This document shows positions 2,272-20,221 of a DNA stretch of 20,221 nt, piece after piece; within the stretch, counting starts at the first letter, position 1; each line of letters opens with the position of its first letter. Where the stretch lies: contig NW_003145106.1 in the NCBI RefSeq assembly GCF_000003605.2, forward strand, positions 1 to 20,221. Direction: 5' to 3'. This DNA is from Saccoglossus kowalevskii. Taxonomy: Eukaryota; Hemichordata; Enteropneusta; Harrimaniidae. The notes beneath the pieces are model-generated. The model did not search any database, was not told where the DNA came from, and was given only the letters and a program-made list of their open reading frames with translations. The position numbers and the translations under genes are program-made.

Positions 2272-2703
2272 GTTACAAGTCTAATGAATTAATAGTAACA
2301 CTGCTTGAATGGTGATAGTGGAAATGATGGTGGTAGTGTAATTATTGCAAGTCTAATGAATTAATAGTAACACTGCTTGAATGATGATAGTGGAAGTTAT
2401 GGTGGTGGTGTAATTGTTACAAGTCTAATGAATTAATAGTAACACTGCTTGAATGGTGATAGTGGAAATGATGGTGGTAGTGTAATTATTGCAAGTCTAA
2501 TGAATTAATAGTAACACTGCTTGAATGATGATAGTGGAAGTTATGGTGGTGGTGTAATTGTTACAAGTCTAATGAATTAATAGTAACACTGCTTGAATGG
2601 TGATAGTGGAAATGATGGTGGTAGTGTAATTATTACAAGTCTAATGAATTAATAGTAAAACTGCCTGAATGATGATAGTGGAAGTTATGGTGGTGGTGTA
2701 ATC
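2272..2703. repeat. Triplicated 144-bp dimer (local expansion)
   Basis: Three tandem two-unit segments start at 2272, 2416 and 2560. Each pairs a GGTGATAGTGGAAATGATGG unit with a GATGATAGTGGAAGTTATGG unit. By eye the first two dimers are identical over all 144 bases. The third differs at a few sites, including ATTATTAC in place of ATTATTGC, AAAACTGCC in place of ACACTGC, and a C in its last spacer. The corresponding places in the other block copies (8025-8168 and 17356-17499) hold one dimer only. This explains the 288-bp difference between block I copies and marks a recent expansion by unequal exchange or slippage. Confidence 0.93.
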
Positions 2704-2773
2704 ATTACAAGTCTAATGAATTGATAGTAACACTGTGAATTGAGACTGTGGAAGTGATGTTTGTGGTGTAATC
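2704..2773. repeat. 70-bp unit, copy 2
   Basis: Same two-base-short type as 1122-1191, but with GAATTGAGACTG where that copy has GAATGGAGACTG. It directly follows the 144-bp dimers. The same arrangement occurs at 8169 and 17500, so the three share a common origin. Confidence 0.93.
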
Positions 2774-3205
2774 ATTACAAGTCTAATGAATCAATAGTAA
2801 CACTGTGTGAATGGTGACAGTGGAATTGATGGCGGTGGTGTAATCATTACAAGTATAATGAATTAATAGTAACACTGCTTTAATGATGATAGTGGAAGTG
2901 ATGGTGGTGGTGTAATTATTACAAGTCTAATGAATTAATAGTAACACTGCTTGAATGAAGATAGTGGAAGTGATGGCGGTGGTGTAATTATTACAAGTCT
3001 AATGAATTAATAGTAACACTGCTTGGATGATGATAGTGGAAGTGATGGTGGTGGTGTAATCATTACAAGTCTAATCAATTAATAGCAACACTGCTTGAAT
3101 GATGATAGTGGGAGTTATGGTGGTGGTGTAATCATTACAAGTCTAATGAATCAATAATAACACTGCTTGAATGATGATAGTGGAAGTGATGTTGGTGGTG
3201 TAATC

Positions 3206-3240
3206 ATTACAAGTCTAATGAATTAATAGTAGCACTAATT
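3206..3240. repeat. 35-bp truncated unit, copy 2
   Basis: Same 37-bp deletion as at 295. Downstream units carry AAGTAATGG and GGAATTGATGG variants, shared with the copy at 8671 and unlike the copy at 295. The array therefore has at least two lineages of this landmark. Confidence 0.95.
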
Positions 3241-3600
3241 ATTACAAGTCTAATGAATCAATAGTAACAATGCGTGAATGGTGATAGTGGAAGTGATGGT
3301 GGTAGTGTAATTATTACAAGTCTAATGAATCAATAGTAACACTGCGTGAATGGTGACAGTGGAAGTAATGGTGGTAGTGTAATCATTACAAGTCTAATGA
3401 ATCAATAGTAGCACTGCGTGAATGTTGACAGTGGAATTGATGGTGATGGTGTAATCATTACAAGTCTAATGAATCAATAGTAACACTGCGTGAATGGTGA
3501 CAGTGGAAGTTATGGTGGTGGTGTAATTATTACAAGTCTAATGAATTAATAGTAACACTGCTTGAATGAAGATAGTGGAAGTGATGGTGGTGGTGTAATT

Positions 3601-3888
3601 ATTACAAGTCTAATGAATTAATAGTAACACTGCTTGAATGATGATAGTGGAAGTGATGGTGGTGGTGTAATTATTACAAGTCTAATGAATTAATAGTAAC
3701 ACTGCTTGAATGATGATAGTGGAAGTGATGGTGGTGGTGTAATCATTACAAGTCTAAGGAATAAATAGTAACACTGCTTGAATGGTAATAGTGGAAGTTA
3801 TGGTGGTGGTGTAATCATTATAAGTCTAATGAATTAATAGTAACACTACGTGAATGTTGACAGTGGAAGTGATGGTGATGGTGTAATT
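3601..3888. repeat. Four ordinary units leading into module B1
   Basis: The first two units (3601-3744) are near-consensus 72-mers. The next two carry AAGGAATAAATAG, AATGGTAATAG and CACTACGTG variants. The left flank of B1 differs from that of B2, B3 and B4, which are preceded by a 66-bp unit. This is a different junction, and units at 18110-18253 resemble it (AATGGTAATAG, then GTTGACAGTGG with GATGGTGATGG). Confidence 0.85.
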
Positions 3889-4103
3889 TTTACAAGTCTG
3901 AGGAATTTATAGTACCACTGCGTGAATGGTGACAGTGGAACTGATGGTGATGGTGTAATCATTACAAATCTGAGGAATTTATAGTAAGACTGTGTGATTG
4001 GTGGCAGTGAAAGTGATGGTGTTGGTGTAATCATTTCAATTCTAATAAATTAATAGTATACTGCGTGAATGATGACAGTGGAAGTGATGGTGGTGGTGTA
4101 ATC
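3889..4103. repeat. Diverged module B1 (72+72+71 bp)
   Basis: These three consecutive units are the most diverged in the array. They carry TCTGAGGAATTTATAG in place of TCTAATGAATTAATAG, AGTACCACTG and AGTAAGACTG variants, GATTGGTGGCAGTG, and TTCAATTCTAATAA. The third unit lacks one base (AGTATACTG). Unit positions 18-20 read TTT in the first two units, which removes the minus-strand stop found in every ordinary unit. This creates the 62-codon minus-strand reading frame 3846-4034, which I regard as a by-product and not a gene. Copies lie at 10669, 17069 and 18961. Confidence 0.93.
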
Positions 4104-5543: not shown

Positions 5544-5759
5544 ATTACAAGTCTAATGAATTAATAGTAACACTGCATGAATGATGATAGTGGAAGTGTT
5601 GGCGGTGGTGTAATTGTTACAAGTCTAATGAATTAATAGTAACACTGCATGAATGATGATAGTGGAAGTGTTGGCGGTGGTGTAATTGTTACAAGTCTAA
5701 TGAATTAATAGTAACACTGCTTGAATGATGATAGTGGAAGTGATGGTGGTGGTGTAATT
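5544..5759. repeat. Linker with tandem pair of GTTGGCGG units
   Basis: Two identical-looking units (5544 and 5616) carry GCATGAATG and AAGTGTTGGCGG, with an ATTGTTAC spacer, and are followed by one consensus unit. Other places hold a single such unit (9131, 10387, 12397, 13800, 14880, 16787, 18679). The unit is a switch point: what follows may be block I, module B or the truncated unit. Confidence 0.88.
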
Positions 5760-6047
5760 ATTACAAGTCTAATGAATTAATAGTAACACTGCTTGAATGA
5801 AGATAGTGGAAGTGATGGTGGTGGTGTAATTATTACAAGTCTAATGAATTGATAGTAACACTGCTTGAATGATGATAGTGGAAGTGATGGTGGTGGTGAA
5901 ATCATTACAAGTCTAATGAATTAATAGTAACACTGCTTGAATGATGATAGTGGAAGTTATGGTGGTGGTGTAATCATTACAAGTCTAATGAATCAATAAT
6001 AACACTGCTTGAATGATGATAGTGGAAGTGATGTTGGTGGTGTAATC

Positions 6048-6082
6048 ATTACAAGTCTAATGAATTAATAGTAGCACTAATT
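6048..6082. repeat. 35-bp truncated unit, copy 3
   Basis: Equivalent to the copy at 295 (offset 5753), with the same upstream AATCAATAATAAC and GATGTTGGTGG units and the same downstream AATAGCAACACTGCG unit. Confidence 0.95.
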
Positions 6083-6874
6083 ATTACAAGTCTAATGAAT
6101 CAATAGTAACAATGCGTGAATGGTGATAGTGGAAGTGATGGTGGTAGTGTAATTATTACAAGTCTAATGAATCAATAGCAACACTGCGTGAATGGTGACA
6201 GTGGAAGTGATGGTGGTAGTGTAATCATTACAAGTCTAATGAATCAATAGTAACACTGCGTGAATGTTGACAGTGGAAGTGATGGTGATGGTGTAATCAT
6301 CACAAGTCTAATGAATCAATAGTAACACTGCGTGAATGTTGACAGTGGAAGTGATGGTGACGGTGTAATCATTACAAATCAAATGAATGAATAGTAACAC
6401 TGTTTGAATGATGATAGTGGAAGTGATGGTGGTGGTGTAATCATTACAAGCCTAATGAATCAATAGTAACACTTCGTGAATGGTGACATTGGAAGTGACG
6501 GTGCTGGTGTAATTTTTACAAGTCTAATGAATCAATAGTAACACTGCGTGAATGTTGACAGTGGGAGTGATGGTGGTGGTGTAATCATTACAAGCCTAAT
6601 AAATGAATAGTAACACTGCGTGAATGTTGACAGTGGAAGTTATGGTGATGGTGTAATCATTACAAGTCTAAGGAATCAATAGTAACACTGCTTGAATGAA
6701 GATAGTGGAAGTGATGGTGGTGGTGTAATTATTACTAGTCTAATGAATTAATAGTAACACTGCTTGAATGATGATAGTGGAAGTGATAGTGGTGGTGTAA
6801 TTATTACAAGTCTAATGAATTAATAGTAACACTGCTTGAATGATGATAGTGGAAGTGATGGTGGTGGTGTAATC

Positions 6875-6944
6875 ATTACAAGTCTAATGAATTGATAGTA
6901 ACACTGTGAATGGAGACTGTGGAAGTGATGTTTGTGGTGTAATT
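6875..6944. repeat. 70-bp unit, copy 3
   Basis: Counterpart of 1122-1191 at offset 5753, including GAATGGAGACTGTGG and the following TTTGATGAATT unit. The aligned region at 13256 has lost this unit in a 286-bp deletion. Confidence 0.93.
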
Positions 6945-8168
6945 ATTACAAGTTTGATGAATTAATAGTAACACTGCGTGAATGATGATAGTGGAAGTGA
7001 TGGCGGTGGTGTAATTGTTACAGGTCTAATGAATTAATAGTAACACTGCTTGAATGATGATAGTGGAAGTGATGGTGGTGGTGTAAATATTACAAGTCTA
7101 ATGAATTAATAGTAACACTGCTTGAATGAAGATAGTGGAAGTGATGGTGGTGGTGTAATTATTACAAGTCTAATGAATTAATAGTAACACTGCTTGAATG
7201 ATGATAGTGGAAGTGATGGTGGTGGTGTAATCATTACAAGTCTAATGAATTAATAGTAACACTGCTTGAATGATGATAGTGGAAGTTATGGTGGTGGTGT
7301 AATCATTACAGGTCTAATGAATCAATAATAACACTGCTTGAATGATGATAGTGGAAGAGATGTTGGTGGTGTAATCATTACAAGTCTAATGCATCAATAG
7401 TAACACTGCTTGAATGATGATACTGGAAGTGATGGTGGTGGTGTAATCATTACAAGTCTAATGAATCAATAGTAACACTGCGTGAATGGTGATAGTGGGA
7501 GTTATGCTGGTGCTGTAATTATTACAAGTCTAATGAATCAATAGTAACACTGCGTGAATGGTGACAGTGGAAGTTATGCTGGTGCTGTAATTATTACAAG
7601 TCTAATGAATCAATAGTAACACTGTGTGAATGTTGACAGTGGGAGAGATGGTGGTGGTGTAATCATTACAAGTCTAATGAATCAATAGCAACACTGCTTG
7701 AATGATGATAGTGGAAGATATGGCGGTGGTGTAATTATTACAAGTCTAATGAATTAATAGTAATACTGCATGAATGATGATAGTGGAAGTGATGGTGGTG
7801 GTGTAATTATTACAAGTCTAATGAATTAATAGTAACACTGCTTGAATGAAGATAGTGGAAGTGATGGTGGTAGTGTAATTATTACAAGTCTAATGAATTA
7901 ATAGTAACACTGCTTGAATGATGATAGTGGACGTGATGGTGGTGGTGTAATTATTACAAGTCTAATGAATTAATAGTAACACTGCTTGAATGATGATAGT
8001 GGAAGTGATGGCGGTGGTGTAATTGTTACAAGTCTAATGAATTAATAGTAACACTGCTTGAATGGTGATAGTGGAAATGATGGTGGTAGTGTAATTATTA
8101 CAAGTCTAATGAATCAATAGTAACACTGCCTGAATGATGATAGTGGAAGTTATGGTGGTGATGTAATC

Positions 8169-8238
8169 ATTACAAGTCTAATGAATTGATAGTAACACTG
8201 TGAATTGAGACTGTGGAAGTGATGTTTGTGGTGTAATC
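8169..8238. repeat. 70-bp unit, copy 4
   Basis: Counterpart of 2704-2773 with the GAATTGAGACTG variant. It follows a single 144-bp dimer and is matched by 17500-17569 at offset 9331. Confidence 0.93.
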
Positions 8239-8670
8239 ATTACAAGTCTAATGAATCAATAGTAACACTGTGTGAATGGTGACAGTGGAATTGATGGCGG
8301 TGGTGTAATCATTACAAGTATAATGAATTAATAGTAACACTGCTTTAATGATGATAGTGGAAGTGATGGTGGTGGTGTAATTATTACAAGTCTAATGAAT
8401 TAATAGTAACACTGCTTGAATGAAGATAGTGGAAGTGATGGCGGTGGTGTAATTATTACAAGTCTAATGAATTAATAGTAACACTGCTTGGATGATGATA
8501 GTGGAAGTGATGGTGGTGGTGTAATCATTACAAGTCTAATCAATTAATAGCAACACTGCTTGAATGATGATAGTGGGAGTTATGGTGGTGGTGTAATCAT
8601 TACAAGTCTAATGAATCAATAATAACACTGCTTGAATGATGATAGTGGAAGTGATGTTGGTGGTGTAATC

Positions 8671-8705
8671 ATTACAAGTCTAATGAATTAATAGTAGCAC
8701 TAATT
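8671..8705. repeat. 35-bp truncated unit, copy 4
   Basis: Counterpart of 3206-3240, with the same AAGTAATGG and GGAATTGATGG downstream variants. It lies only 889 bp before the next truncated unit (9560), whereas other spacings are 2.6 to 2.9 kb. This reflects the block switch at about 9130. Confidence 0.95.
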
Positions 8706-9065
8706 ATTACAAGTCTAATGAATCAATAGTAACAATGCGTGAATGGTGATAGTGGAAGTGATGGTGGTAGTGTAATTATTACAAGTCTAATGAATCAATA
8801 GTAACACTGCGTGAATGGTGACAGTGGAAGTAATGGTGGTAGTGTAATCATTACAAGTCTAATGAATCAATAGTAGCACTGCGTGAATGTTGACAGTGGA
8901 ATTGATGGTGATGGTGTAATCATTACAAGTCTAATGAATCAATAGTAACACTGCGTGAATGGTGACAGTGGAAGTTATGGTGGTGGTGTAATTATTACAA
9001 GTCTAATGAATTAATAGTAACACTGCTTGAATGAAGATAGTGGAAGTGATGGTGGTGGTGTAATT

Positions 9066-9199
9066 ATTACAAGTCTAATGATTATAGTAACACTGCTTGA
9101 TGATGATAGTGAAGTGATGGTGTGTGTATTATTACAAGTCTATGATTATAGTAACACTGCATGAATGATGATAGTGGAAGTGTTGGCGGTGGTGTAATT
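9066..9199. other. Two units of 65 and 69 bp with clustered one-base deletions
   Basis: Compared with ordinary units, ten single bases are missing between about 9081 and 9145, each from a doubled letter or GGT run: TAATGATTATAG for TAATGAATTAATAG, CTTGATG for CTTGAATG, AGTGAAG for AGTGGAAG, GGTGTGTGTATT for GGTGGTGGTGTAATT, and CTATGATTATAG. No other place in the window shows this density. Such loss in short homopolymers is the usual signature of uncorrected long-read consensus, and it sits exactly where the array switches from block I to a copy of 5616 onward. A real mutational cluster is possible but less likely. Confidence 0.85.
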
Positions 9200-10386
9200 G
9201 TTACAAGTCTAATGAATTAATAGTAACACTGCTTGAATGATGATAGTGGAAGTGATGGTGGTGGTGTAATTATTACAAGTCTAATGAATTAATAGTAACA
9301 CTGCTTGAATGAAGATAGTGGAAGTGATGGTGGTGGTGTAATTATTACAAGTCTAATGAATTAATAGTAACACTGCTTGAATGATGATAGTGGAAGTGAT
9401 GGTGGTGGTGAAATCATTACAAGTCTAATGAATTAATAGTAACACTGCTTGAATGATGATAGTGGAAGTTATGGTGGTGGTGTAATCATTACAAGTCTAA
9501 TGAATCAATAATAACACTGCTTGAATGATGATAGTGGAAGTGATGTTGGTGGTGTAATCATTACAAGTCTAATGAATTAATAGTAGCACTAATTATTACA
9601 AGTCTAATGAATCAATAGTAAAAATGCGTGAATGGTGATAGTGGAAGTGATGGTGGTAGTGTAATTATTACAAGTCTAATGAAACAATAGTAACACTGCG
9701 TGAATGGTGACAGTGGAAGTGATGGTGGTAGTGTAATCATTACAAGTCTAATGAATCAATAGTAACACTGCGTGAATGTTGACAGTGGAAGTGATGGTGA
9801 TGGTGTAATCATCACAAGTCTAATGAATCAATAGTAACACTGCGTGAATGTTGACAGTGGAAGTGATGGTGATGGTGTAATCATTACAAATCAAATGAAT
9901 GAATAGTAACACTGTTTGAATGATGATAGTGGAAGTGATGGTGGTGGTGTAATCATTACAAGCCTAATGAATCAATAGTAACACTTCGTGAATGGTGACA
10001 TTGGAAGTGACGGTGCTGGTGTAATTTTTACAAGTCTAATGAATCAATAGTAACACTGCGTGAATGTTGACAGTGGGAGTGATGGTGGTGGTGTAATCAT
10101 TACAAGCCTAATAAATGAATAGTAACACTGCGTGAATGTTGACAGTGGAAGTTATGGTGATGGTGTAATCATTACAAGTCTAAGGAATCAATAGTAACAC
10201 TGCTTGAATGAAGATAGTGGAAGTGATGGTGGTGGTGTAGTTATTGCAAGTCTAATGAATTAATAGTAACACTGCTTGAATGATGATAGTGGAAGTGATA
10301 GTGGTGGTGTAATTATTACAAGTCTAATGAATTAATAGTAACACTGCTTGAATGATGATAGTGGAAGTGATGGTGGTGCTGTAATC
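9131..10386. repeat. Copy of 5616-6874 (offset 3512)
   Basis: Units from the GTTGGCGG unit through the truncated unit, the GGTGACATTGG/GACGGTGCTGG unit and the GATAGTGGTGG unit match 5616-6874 in order. Private changes include AAAAATGCG at about 9620, GAAACAATAG at about 9681 and TAGTTATTGCAAG at about 10240. After 10386 the other copy continues with the 70-bp unit, while here the array switches to the lead-in of module B2. Confidence 0.88.
9560..9594. repeat. 35-bp truncated unit, copy 5
   Basis: Same breakpoint as the other copies and equivalent to 6048-6082 at offset 3512. Confidence 0.95.
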
Positions 10387-10668
10387 ATTACAAGTCTAAT
10401 GAATTAATAGTAACACTGCATGAATGATGATAGTGGAAGTGTTGGCGGTGGTGTAATTGTTACAAGTCTAATAAATGAATAGTAACACTGCGTGAATGTT
10501 GACAGTGGAAGTTATGGTGATGGTGTAATCATTACAAGTCTAAGGAATCAATAGTAACATTACGTGAATGGTGACAGTGGAAGTGATGCTGTAATCATTA
10601 CAAGTCTAATGAATCAATAGTAACACTACGTGAATTGTGACATTGGAATTGACGGTGGTGGTGTAATT
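10387..10668. repeat. Lead-in to module B2, with a 66-bp unit at 10531-10596
   Basis: A GTTGGCGG unit is followed by an AATAAATGAATAG/GTTATGGTGATGG unit, then a 66-bp unit, then a unit with TGAATTGTGACATTGG and TTTTTACATATCTG. The 66-bp unit ends AGTGATGCTGTAATC, having lost six bases from the GGT run. The same lead-in precedes B3 (16787-17068) and B4 (18679-18960) but not B1. Confidence 0.9.
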
Positions 10669-11027: not shown

Positions 11028-11892
11028 ATCACAAGTCTAATGAATCAATAGTAACACTGCGTGAATGGTGATAGTGGAAGTTATGGTGGTGATGTAATCA
11101 TTACAAGTATAATGAATTGATAGTAACACTGCTTGAATGAAGATAGTGGAAGTGATGGTGGTGGTGTAATCATTACAAGTCTAATGAATTAATAGTAACA
11201 CTGCTTGAATGATGATAGTGGAAGTTATGGTGGTTGTGTAATCATTACAAGTCTAATGAATCAATAATAACACTGCTTGAATGATGATAGTGGAAGTGAT
11301 GGTGGTGGTGTAATGATCACAAGTCTAATGAATCAATAGTAACACTGCGTGAATGGTGATAGTGGAAGTTATGGTGGTGATGTAATCATTACAAGTATAA
11401 TGAATTGATAGTAACACTGCTTGAATGAAGATAGTGGAAAGTGATGGTGGTGGTGTAATCATTACAAGTCTAATGAATTAATAGTAACACTGCTTGAATG
11501 ATGATAGTGGAAGTTATGGTGGTGGTGTAATCATTACAAGTCTAATGAATCAATAATAACACTGCTTGAATGATGATAGTGGAAGTGATGGTGGTGGTGT
11601 AATGATCACAAGTCTAATGAATCAATAGTAACACTGCGTGAATGGTGATAGTGGAAGTGATGGTGGTGGTGTAATGATCACAAGTCTAATGAATCAATAG
11701 TAACACTGCGTGAATGGTGATAGTGGAAGTTATGGTGGTGATGTAATCATTACAAGTATAATGAATTGATAGTAACACTGCTTGAATGAAGATAGTGGAA
11801 GTGATGGTGGTGGTGTAATCATTACAAGTCTAATGAATTAATAGTAACACTGCTTGAATTATGATAGTGGAAGTTATGGTGGTTGTGTAATC
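11028..11892. repeat. 288-bp tetramer sub-array, copy 2 (expanded)
   Basis: Tetramers start at 11028, 11316 and 11677. A single hybrid unit at 11605-11676 lies between the second and third. The second is 289 bp because of an extra A (GGAAAGTG, 11438-11440), a one-base homopolymer gain not seen elsewhere. The third carries GAATTATGATAG and is three units long before module M2. Compared with 4248-4823 there are four extra units. Confidence 0.9.
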
Positions 11893-18109: not shown

Positions 18110-18390
18110 TTACAAGTCTAATGAATCAATAGTAACACTGCTTGAATGGTAATAGTGGAAGTTATGGTGGTGGTGTAATCATTACAAGTCTAATGAATTA
18201 ATAGTAACACTGCGTGAATGTTGACAGTGGAAGTGATGGTGATGGTGTAATCATTACAAGTCTAATGAATCAATAGTAACACTGCGTGAATGTTGACAAT
18301 GGAAGTGATGGTGATGGTGTAATCATTACAAGTCTAATGATTCAATAGTAACACTGCGTGAATGTTGACAGTGGAAGTGATGGTGTAATC
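18110..18390. repeat. Connector units, with a 66-bp unit at 18325-18390
   Basis: Three 72-bp units resemble the left flank of module B1 (AATGGTAATAG, then GTTGACAGTGG with GATGGTGATGG; one has GACAATGG). A unit short by six bases follows (AGTGATGGTGTAATC). The loss lies in the GGT/GAT triplets, like the 66-bp units before B2 to B4, but it is a separate event because the resulting sequence differs. Confidence 0.85.
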
Positions 18391-19823: not shown

Positions 19824-20221
19824 ATTACAAGTCTAATGAATTAATTGTAACACTGCTTGAATGATGATAGTGGAAGAGATGGCGGTGGTGTAATTATTAC
19901 AAGTCTAATGAATTAATAGTAATACTGCATGAATGATGATAGTGGAAGTGATGGTGGTGGTGTAATTATTACAAGTCTAATAAATTAATAGTAACACTGC
20001 TTGAATGATGATAGTGGAAGTGATGGCGGTGCTGTAATTATTACAAGTCTAATGAGTTAATAGTAACATTGCTTGAATGATGATACTGGAAGTGATGGTG
20101 GTGGTGTAATCATTACAAGTCTAATGAATCAATAGCAACACTGCGTGAATGGTGATAGTAGAGTTATGCTGGTGCTGTAATTATTACAAGTCTTAATGAA
20201 TCAATAGTAACACTGCGTGAA
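19824..20221. repeat. Module M5, cut by the window end
   Basis: Follows M2 at offset 7931, with the same AATAAATTAATAG, AATGAGTTAATAG and GATAGTAG variants. Near the end it lacks one G (GATAGTAGAG at about 20160) and has an extra T (AGTCTTAATG at about 20193). Both are one-base homopolymer changes unique in the window and may be sequence errors. Confidence 0.9.

Follow-up and report, generated by a model that had tools for sequence, protein, structure and literature searches.

Ten one-base deletions cluster within 68 bases of a satellite array and, judged from the assembled letters, they are very probably uncorrected sequencing errors, an artefact of one kind or another, rather than differences in the DNA. 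The window, that is, the whole stretch of DNA that was analysed, is a complete contig (C3599, positions 1-20221) of a genome assembly of 572 Mb in 4830 contigs. The patch is truly present in the assembled sequence, but it looks like an error at a poorly supported spot and not like biology. Block structure, unit lengths and unequal-exchange events are unsafe to read near 9080-9160 in this contig and, if the patch is indeed an artefact, some short satellite contigs of the assembly contain error patches. Near-identical array copies can act as their own reference for finding such patches without reads.

The 72-bp array and its patch of deletions

From end to end, the contig is an array of 72-bp repeats. 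Its head-to-tail units, without coding capacity, place it in satellite DNA. We found no open frame of at least 100 aa in the window, the longest stop-free stretch being 68 codons, and a coding function was rejected on this ground; in an Rfam search of the window, no family reached its gathering score. The satellite gave no blastn match in plasmids or phages and, searched as exact patterns, was absent from prokaryote genome contigs and viral contigs, with records from the window's own genome possibly excluded in both cases. The observed/expected CpG ratio is 0.28 in the satellite, and 1.15 and 1.12 in two flanking 10-kb stretches; since these flanks show no depletion, the low CpG probably comes from the repeat unit, rather than being genome-wide. 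More of the satellite is found on C4694 (18,065 bp). Two longer contigs, C4772 (611 kb) and C1816 (127 kb), also begin with its edge; the two edges are oppositely oriented, and the contigs may flank one array:

L003 (C4772), 1-271: satellite edge
L004 (C1816), 1-66: satellite edge

Compared with its consensus, the array carries 1317 substitutions, yet 260 of its 286 units are free of indels. Internal repeats were mapped by a diagonal scan of the window, and self-copying is high (1203 of 1677 108-bp tiles have an exact copy elsewhere in the window). Blocks are nested, lengths change in register and copies are nearly identical, as in higher-order satellite arrays, which evolve by unequal exchange. 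A 35-bp truncated unit occurs in eight copies (296, 3207, 6049, 8672, 9561, 12470, 15313, 18003), which are markers of larger blocks of ~2.6-2.9 kb.

Wrap-around alignment to the repeat unit confirmed what an earlier sequence-only reading of this DNA had noticed, namely ten clustered one-base deletions, all of them within 9080-9147, and two short adjacent units of 65 and 69 bp in a 72-bp array:

9080..9147: patch with ten single bases missing relative to 3601-3705 (an A lost from AA seven times, a G from GG three times)
9080, 9083, 9099, 9110, 9121, 9123, 9127, 9141, 9144, 9147: the single-base deletions
9067..9131, forward strand: 65-bp unit with seven deletions
9132..9200, forward strand: 69-bp unit with three deletions
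11438 (insertion), 20161 (deletion), 20193 (insertion): the other private one-base indels, the last two in the final 61 bases

The patch differs from its best source, 3601-3705, by ten deletions, with neither substitutions nor insertions. The order of its bases is unchanged and only run lengths differ; in run-compressed form, eight runs are shorter and none is longer. The losses had been described as coming from doubled letters or GGT runs, and this is borne out: all ten fall in AA or GG doublets (AA lost a base in 7 of 13 cases and GG in 3 of 4, giving 10 of 17 purine doublets shortened, versus none of 6 TT doublets and none of 59 single letters). The chance of all ten landing in doublets is 1.4e-4. 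Among the AA doublets, a base is missing from 7 of 8 AAT sites and from 0 of 5 AAC or AAG sites.

Such indels are nearly absent from the rest of the 20 kb, as the same reading had stated, the three listed above being the only other private ones. Ten further one-base indels recur between blocks (2740 and 2743 with their counterparts, and 4057 with its counterparts). The bound for 10 of 13 private one-base indels falling inside 68 bp, ~1.6e-19, only formalises the clustering, since the 13 include the ten and the cluster was picked after being seen. When each of the 1677 tiles was compared with its best match elsewhere in the window, the worst were those at 9061 and 9073, with 11 edits. Other poor tiles (at most 9 edits) lie near 3817, a region without indels versus the consensus, and near 18301, with one six-base deletion at 18380. 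At 18312-18326, shorter and longer runs are mixed, and this stretch was set aside as expected from ordinary substitutions.

The patch appears to exist in a single copy. A genome search with it gave 502 matches and, among the best candidates, which were the ones scored, the only full-length match was at its own place (192 bits); the next best reached 131 bits and the others listed had 84-89% identity. No second cluster was flagged in the window, and neither the patch nor its junction was found in the 17,903 of 18,065 bases of C4694 that were read. The window junction, aligned to C4694, gives left, right and spanning mismatches of 15, 0 and 29 with 300-bp flanks, 2, 0 and 10 with 150-bp flanks, and 0, 0 and 6 with 100-bp flanks. 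Judged by these counts, C4694 holds the right block, and the left block only in a form diverged beyond ~100 bp. A run-length test pooling C3599 and C4694 flagged seven clusters, and only the window patch was one-directional. With so much self-copying in the array, a patch that had been passed on, whatever its age, might be expected to have a second copy.

Run-length clusters and contig ends elsewhere in the assembly

The patch resembles errors in some other satellite contigs and at contig ends of the assembly. For a wider sample, 40 further contigs were chosen by number and their starts added to those of C4772 and C1816, making 42 stretches (17 all N and 3 partly N). Sixteen of the 42 had an array suitable for the wrap-around test (>600 bp, period 20-150), and a cluster was flagged where five or more isolated one-base indels of one sign fell within 90 bp. 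One-signed clusters occur in 3 of these 16 other arrays, one consisting of deletions and two of insertions, all less clean than that of the window:

L039 (C3450), 2851-2910: 7 deletions versus consensus
L036 (C3150), 3484-3573: 8 insertions versus consensus
L030 (C2550), 274-435: 5 + 5 insertions versus consensus

L016 yielded four more, but in sequence that does not conform to its repeat, and these were discounted. Any two flagged clusters have fewer than four positions in common. Aligned to its nearest copy, the L039 cluster shows 8 deletions and 5 substitutions, that of L036 8 insertions, 4 deletions and 2 substitutions, and that of L030 10 insertions, 1 deletion and 11 substitutions; changes between single and double letters are frequent in these alignments, but other changes are present too. 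In run-compressed form, shorter and longer runs number 6 and 0 in L039, 1 and 5 in L036, and 0 and 5 in L030. Most other flagged run-length clusters mix shorter and longer runs, and those of several arrays, including L030 2927-2936 (4 shorter, 1 longer), were set aside as expected from ordinary substitutions. Thirteen of the 16 other array contigs are 10-40 kb long, lengths that would fit few reads per contig.

Two further features appeared among these stretches. At 2194/2195 of L017 (C1250), a 44-bp array flips into its own reverse complement, a fold-back due either to a genuine inversion or to an artefact of the reads. Positions 1-6000 of L010 (C550) form a tandem array of ~468 bp per unit in 12.9 copies, whose units mostly carry a tRNA-Ile (aat) gene (ARAGORN finds 12 in 6 kb).

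For five ends of contigs carrying the 72-bp satellite, we also compared 120 bases with the nearest copy, excluding the C1816 start, whose edge is too diverged to judge. Three of the five ends bear indels. The last 30 bases of C4694 (L053) have two deletions and no substitutions, the C4772 start (L003, near position 18) has one deletion and 3 substitutions, and the third is the end of the window itself:

20161..20193: C3599 end, a GG-to-G deletion and a one-base T insertion, with no substitutions over the last 120 bases

The C4694 start has no differences, and the C3599 start has one substitution and its first 3 bases unaligned, with no indel. Four of the five indels at ends are AA-to-A or GG-to-G, the very changes seen in the patch, although errors per end (0-2) are far below the ten of the patch. 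In 14 start-anchored arrays, the window included, the first 100-bp tile, with substitutions and indels counted together, lay further from its best partner than the median tile in 9 arrays, at the same distance in 3 and closer in 2.

The block switch beside the patch

The array switches blocks at the patch, as the sequence-only reading had proposed: the sequences to its left and right have different sources, and the switch sits at the patch's right edge. The features concerned are the following:

8162..9081, forward strand: left block, exact copy of 2697-3616 (920 bp)
9148..10405, forward strand: right block, 99.28% copy of 5636-6893, mismatch-free to 9362
9132..9160: interval necessarily containing the switch, where the copy of 2697-3705 gives way to that of 5636 onward, from alignments to both sources
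8672..8706, forward strand: 35-bp truncated unit left of the patch (marker)
9561..9595, forward strand: next 35-bp truncated unit, on the right side of the patch (marker; 889 bp from the previous one)

No exact ungapped repeat found in the window is longer than the 920 bp of the left block. Since 9131 fits the left source only and 9161 the right source only, the switch must fall within 9132-9160. Seven of the ten deletions lie to the left of this interval, three inside it and none beyond.

Spacings between successive truncated units are 2911, 2842, 2623, 889, 2909, 2843 and 2690 bp. The deletions had been offered as the cause of the 889-bp spacing, an explanation that fails: they account for only 10 bp, and with the deletions aligned away the spacing becomes 899, still far below the other six (2623-2911). 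Subtracting 899 from 2842 leaves 1943 bp, which is 27 units less one base, this base being missing in the unit at 4034. The rest of the short spacing is 27 units missing at the switch, possibly lost in a real exchange.

How unusual such a switch is was measured as the extra mismatches of a single spanning partner versus the best separate partners of the two flanks, with controls every 25 bases. Controls at least as discontinuous as the patch, which overlap and are not independent, numbered 56 of 753 with 300-bp flanks and 60 of 777 with 150-bp flanks. With ~7% of control positions equally discontinuous, the coincidence of patch and switch is suggestive and not strong evidence. Only 4 of 97 segment-end clusters have a private indel within 40 bp, namely both patch edges, 11439 and the contig end, and the clusters at the patch edges and at 11439 exist only because an indel there interrupts an ungapped match. 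The remaining 93 clusters have no private indel nearby, and in this the parallel between the patch and higher-order arrays evolving by unequal exchange ends. The L039 and L036 patches are not at unusually strong switches: controls were as strong in 26 of 185 (300-bp flanks) and 96 of 209 (150-bp flanks) for L039, and in 134 of 178 and 162 of 202 for L036, where the test is weak because the right flank lacks a good partner. The L030 junction was examined without controls.

At the switch 27 units are missing relative to the parallel block, and either a false join or a true rearrangement of the array may be responsible. The sequence-only reading had attributed the patch to unpolished read sequence bridging two contig ends; its artefact part is well supported, and the join of two contig ends is no more than a possibility. 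A narrow form of the artefact explanation, being a subset of it and not an alternative, would have an unpolished left piece end at ~9147 and be falsely joined to the right block within 9132-9160, dropping ~27 units. We hold this form tentatively, a little short of an even chance. It is consistent with the position of all ten deletions to the left of or inside the switch interval, with the similar errors at contig ends of this satellite, and with the one spacing that stands apart from the other six. The window junction was not found in C4694 either, but a junction need not occur in another contig of the array. Against a false join, equally strong switches are common among the controls, nearly all segment-end clusters lack a private indel, and the patches of L039 and L036 do not fall on switches of exceptional strength. 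A loss in register to the base fits real unequal exchange as well as it fits a false join driven by repeats. More broadly, because the patch stops at the block switch, the odds are about even that it also marks the buried end of a read or contig, whatever its kind.

Sequencing error or mutation

We favour an artefact because the patch has no substitutions, is restricted to doublets and has a single full match in the genome, and because similar changes are seen at 3 of 5 contig ends and in 3 of 16 other arrays. Over ~70 bases, the order of the bases would have been read correctly and the run lengths under-called (AA to A, GG to G). We infer that the patch originated in one long read or very few, with a locally poor signal, and its errors would have persisted at a place where consensus building or polishing did not work among near-identical satellite copies.

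Long-read technologies are prone to related errors. In one nanopore study, about half of the errors, chiefly deletions, come from homopolymers and short repeats; deletions and an error above 20% accompany fast translocation, and insertions slow translocation; most homopolymers of no more than 4 or 5 bases (over 70%) are read without error (PMC8486125). Two other papers give homopolymer length as the main HiFi error (PMC7545148) and deletions in runs of at least 3 as most of the false small variants in the nanopore data of that paper (PMC11927395). Like such nanopore or PacBio run-length errors, the patch keeps the order of bases and gets the lengths wrong, in one direction per patch. It differs from them in affecting two-base runs and in forming a short dense cluster in clean sequence. 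Two-base runs are seldom hit by such errors, which points to a single read or to a stretch of very poor quality. With unpolished contig ends and false joins in satellites the patch shares the similar errors at the ends and the block switch, and it differs from the ends in its ten errors, versus at most two at those read. A literature search found no paper on run-length clusters or HiFi dropout patches. The preference for AAT over AAC and AAG, and for purine doublets over TT, is left unexplained by reading error.

A real mutation cluster, in which error-prone repair or synthesis at a repeat recombination junction produced ten slippage deletions in the left copy, is in our judgement very improbable. 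The deletions do adjoin a junction of two blocks, and all are in two-base runs, where slippage can act. However, there are ten of them in 68 bp without a single substitution, which far exceeds any rate of polymerase slippage known to us, and our literature search on deletions by Y-family polymerases found no paper. Segment-end clusters in the window mostly carry no private indel, and a cluster made by mutation would have to remain in one copy in an array that copies itself freely. Arrays built on other repeat units also contain mostly-insertion clusters, and a mutational process behind those as well would need to make insertions in those satellites too. There is scant likelihood of a true mutational process leaving short clusters of mostly one-signed, one-base run-length changes in several satellites with different repeat units, sometimes at exchange junctions.

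An old, decayed repeat unit that gathered its indels over time is almost certainly not the answer, and was rejected for the lack of substitutions versus the sister copy at 3601-3705, with exact identity running over 920 bp up to the patch, although edge units of the satellite, at the C4772 start, are diverged and bear indels.
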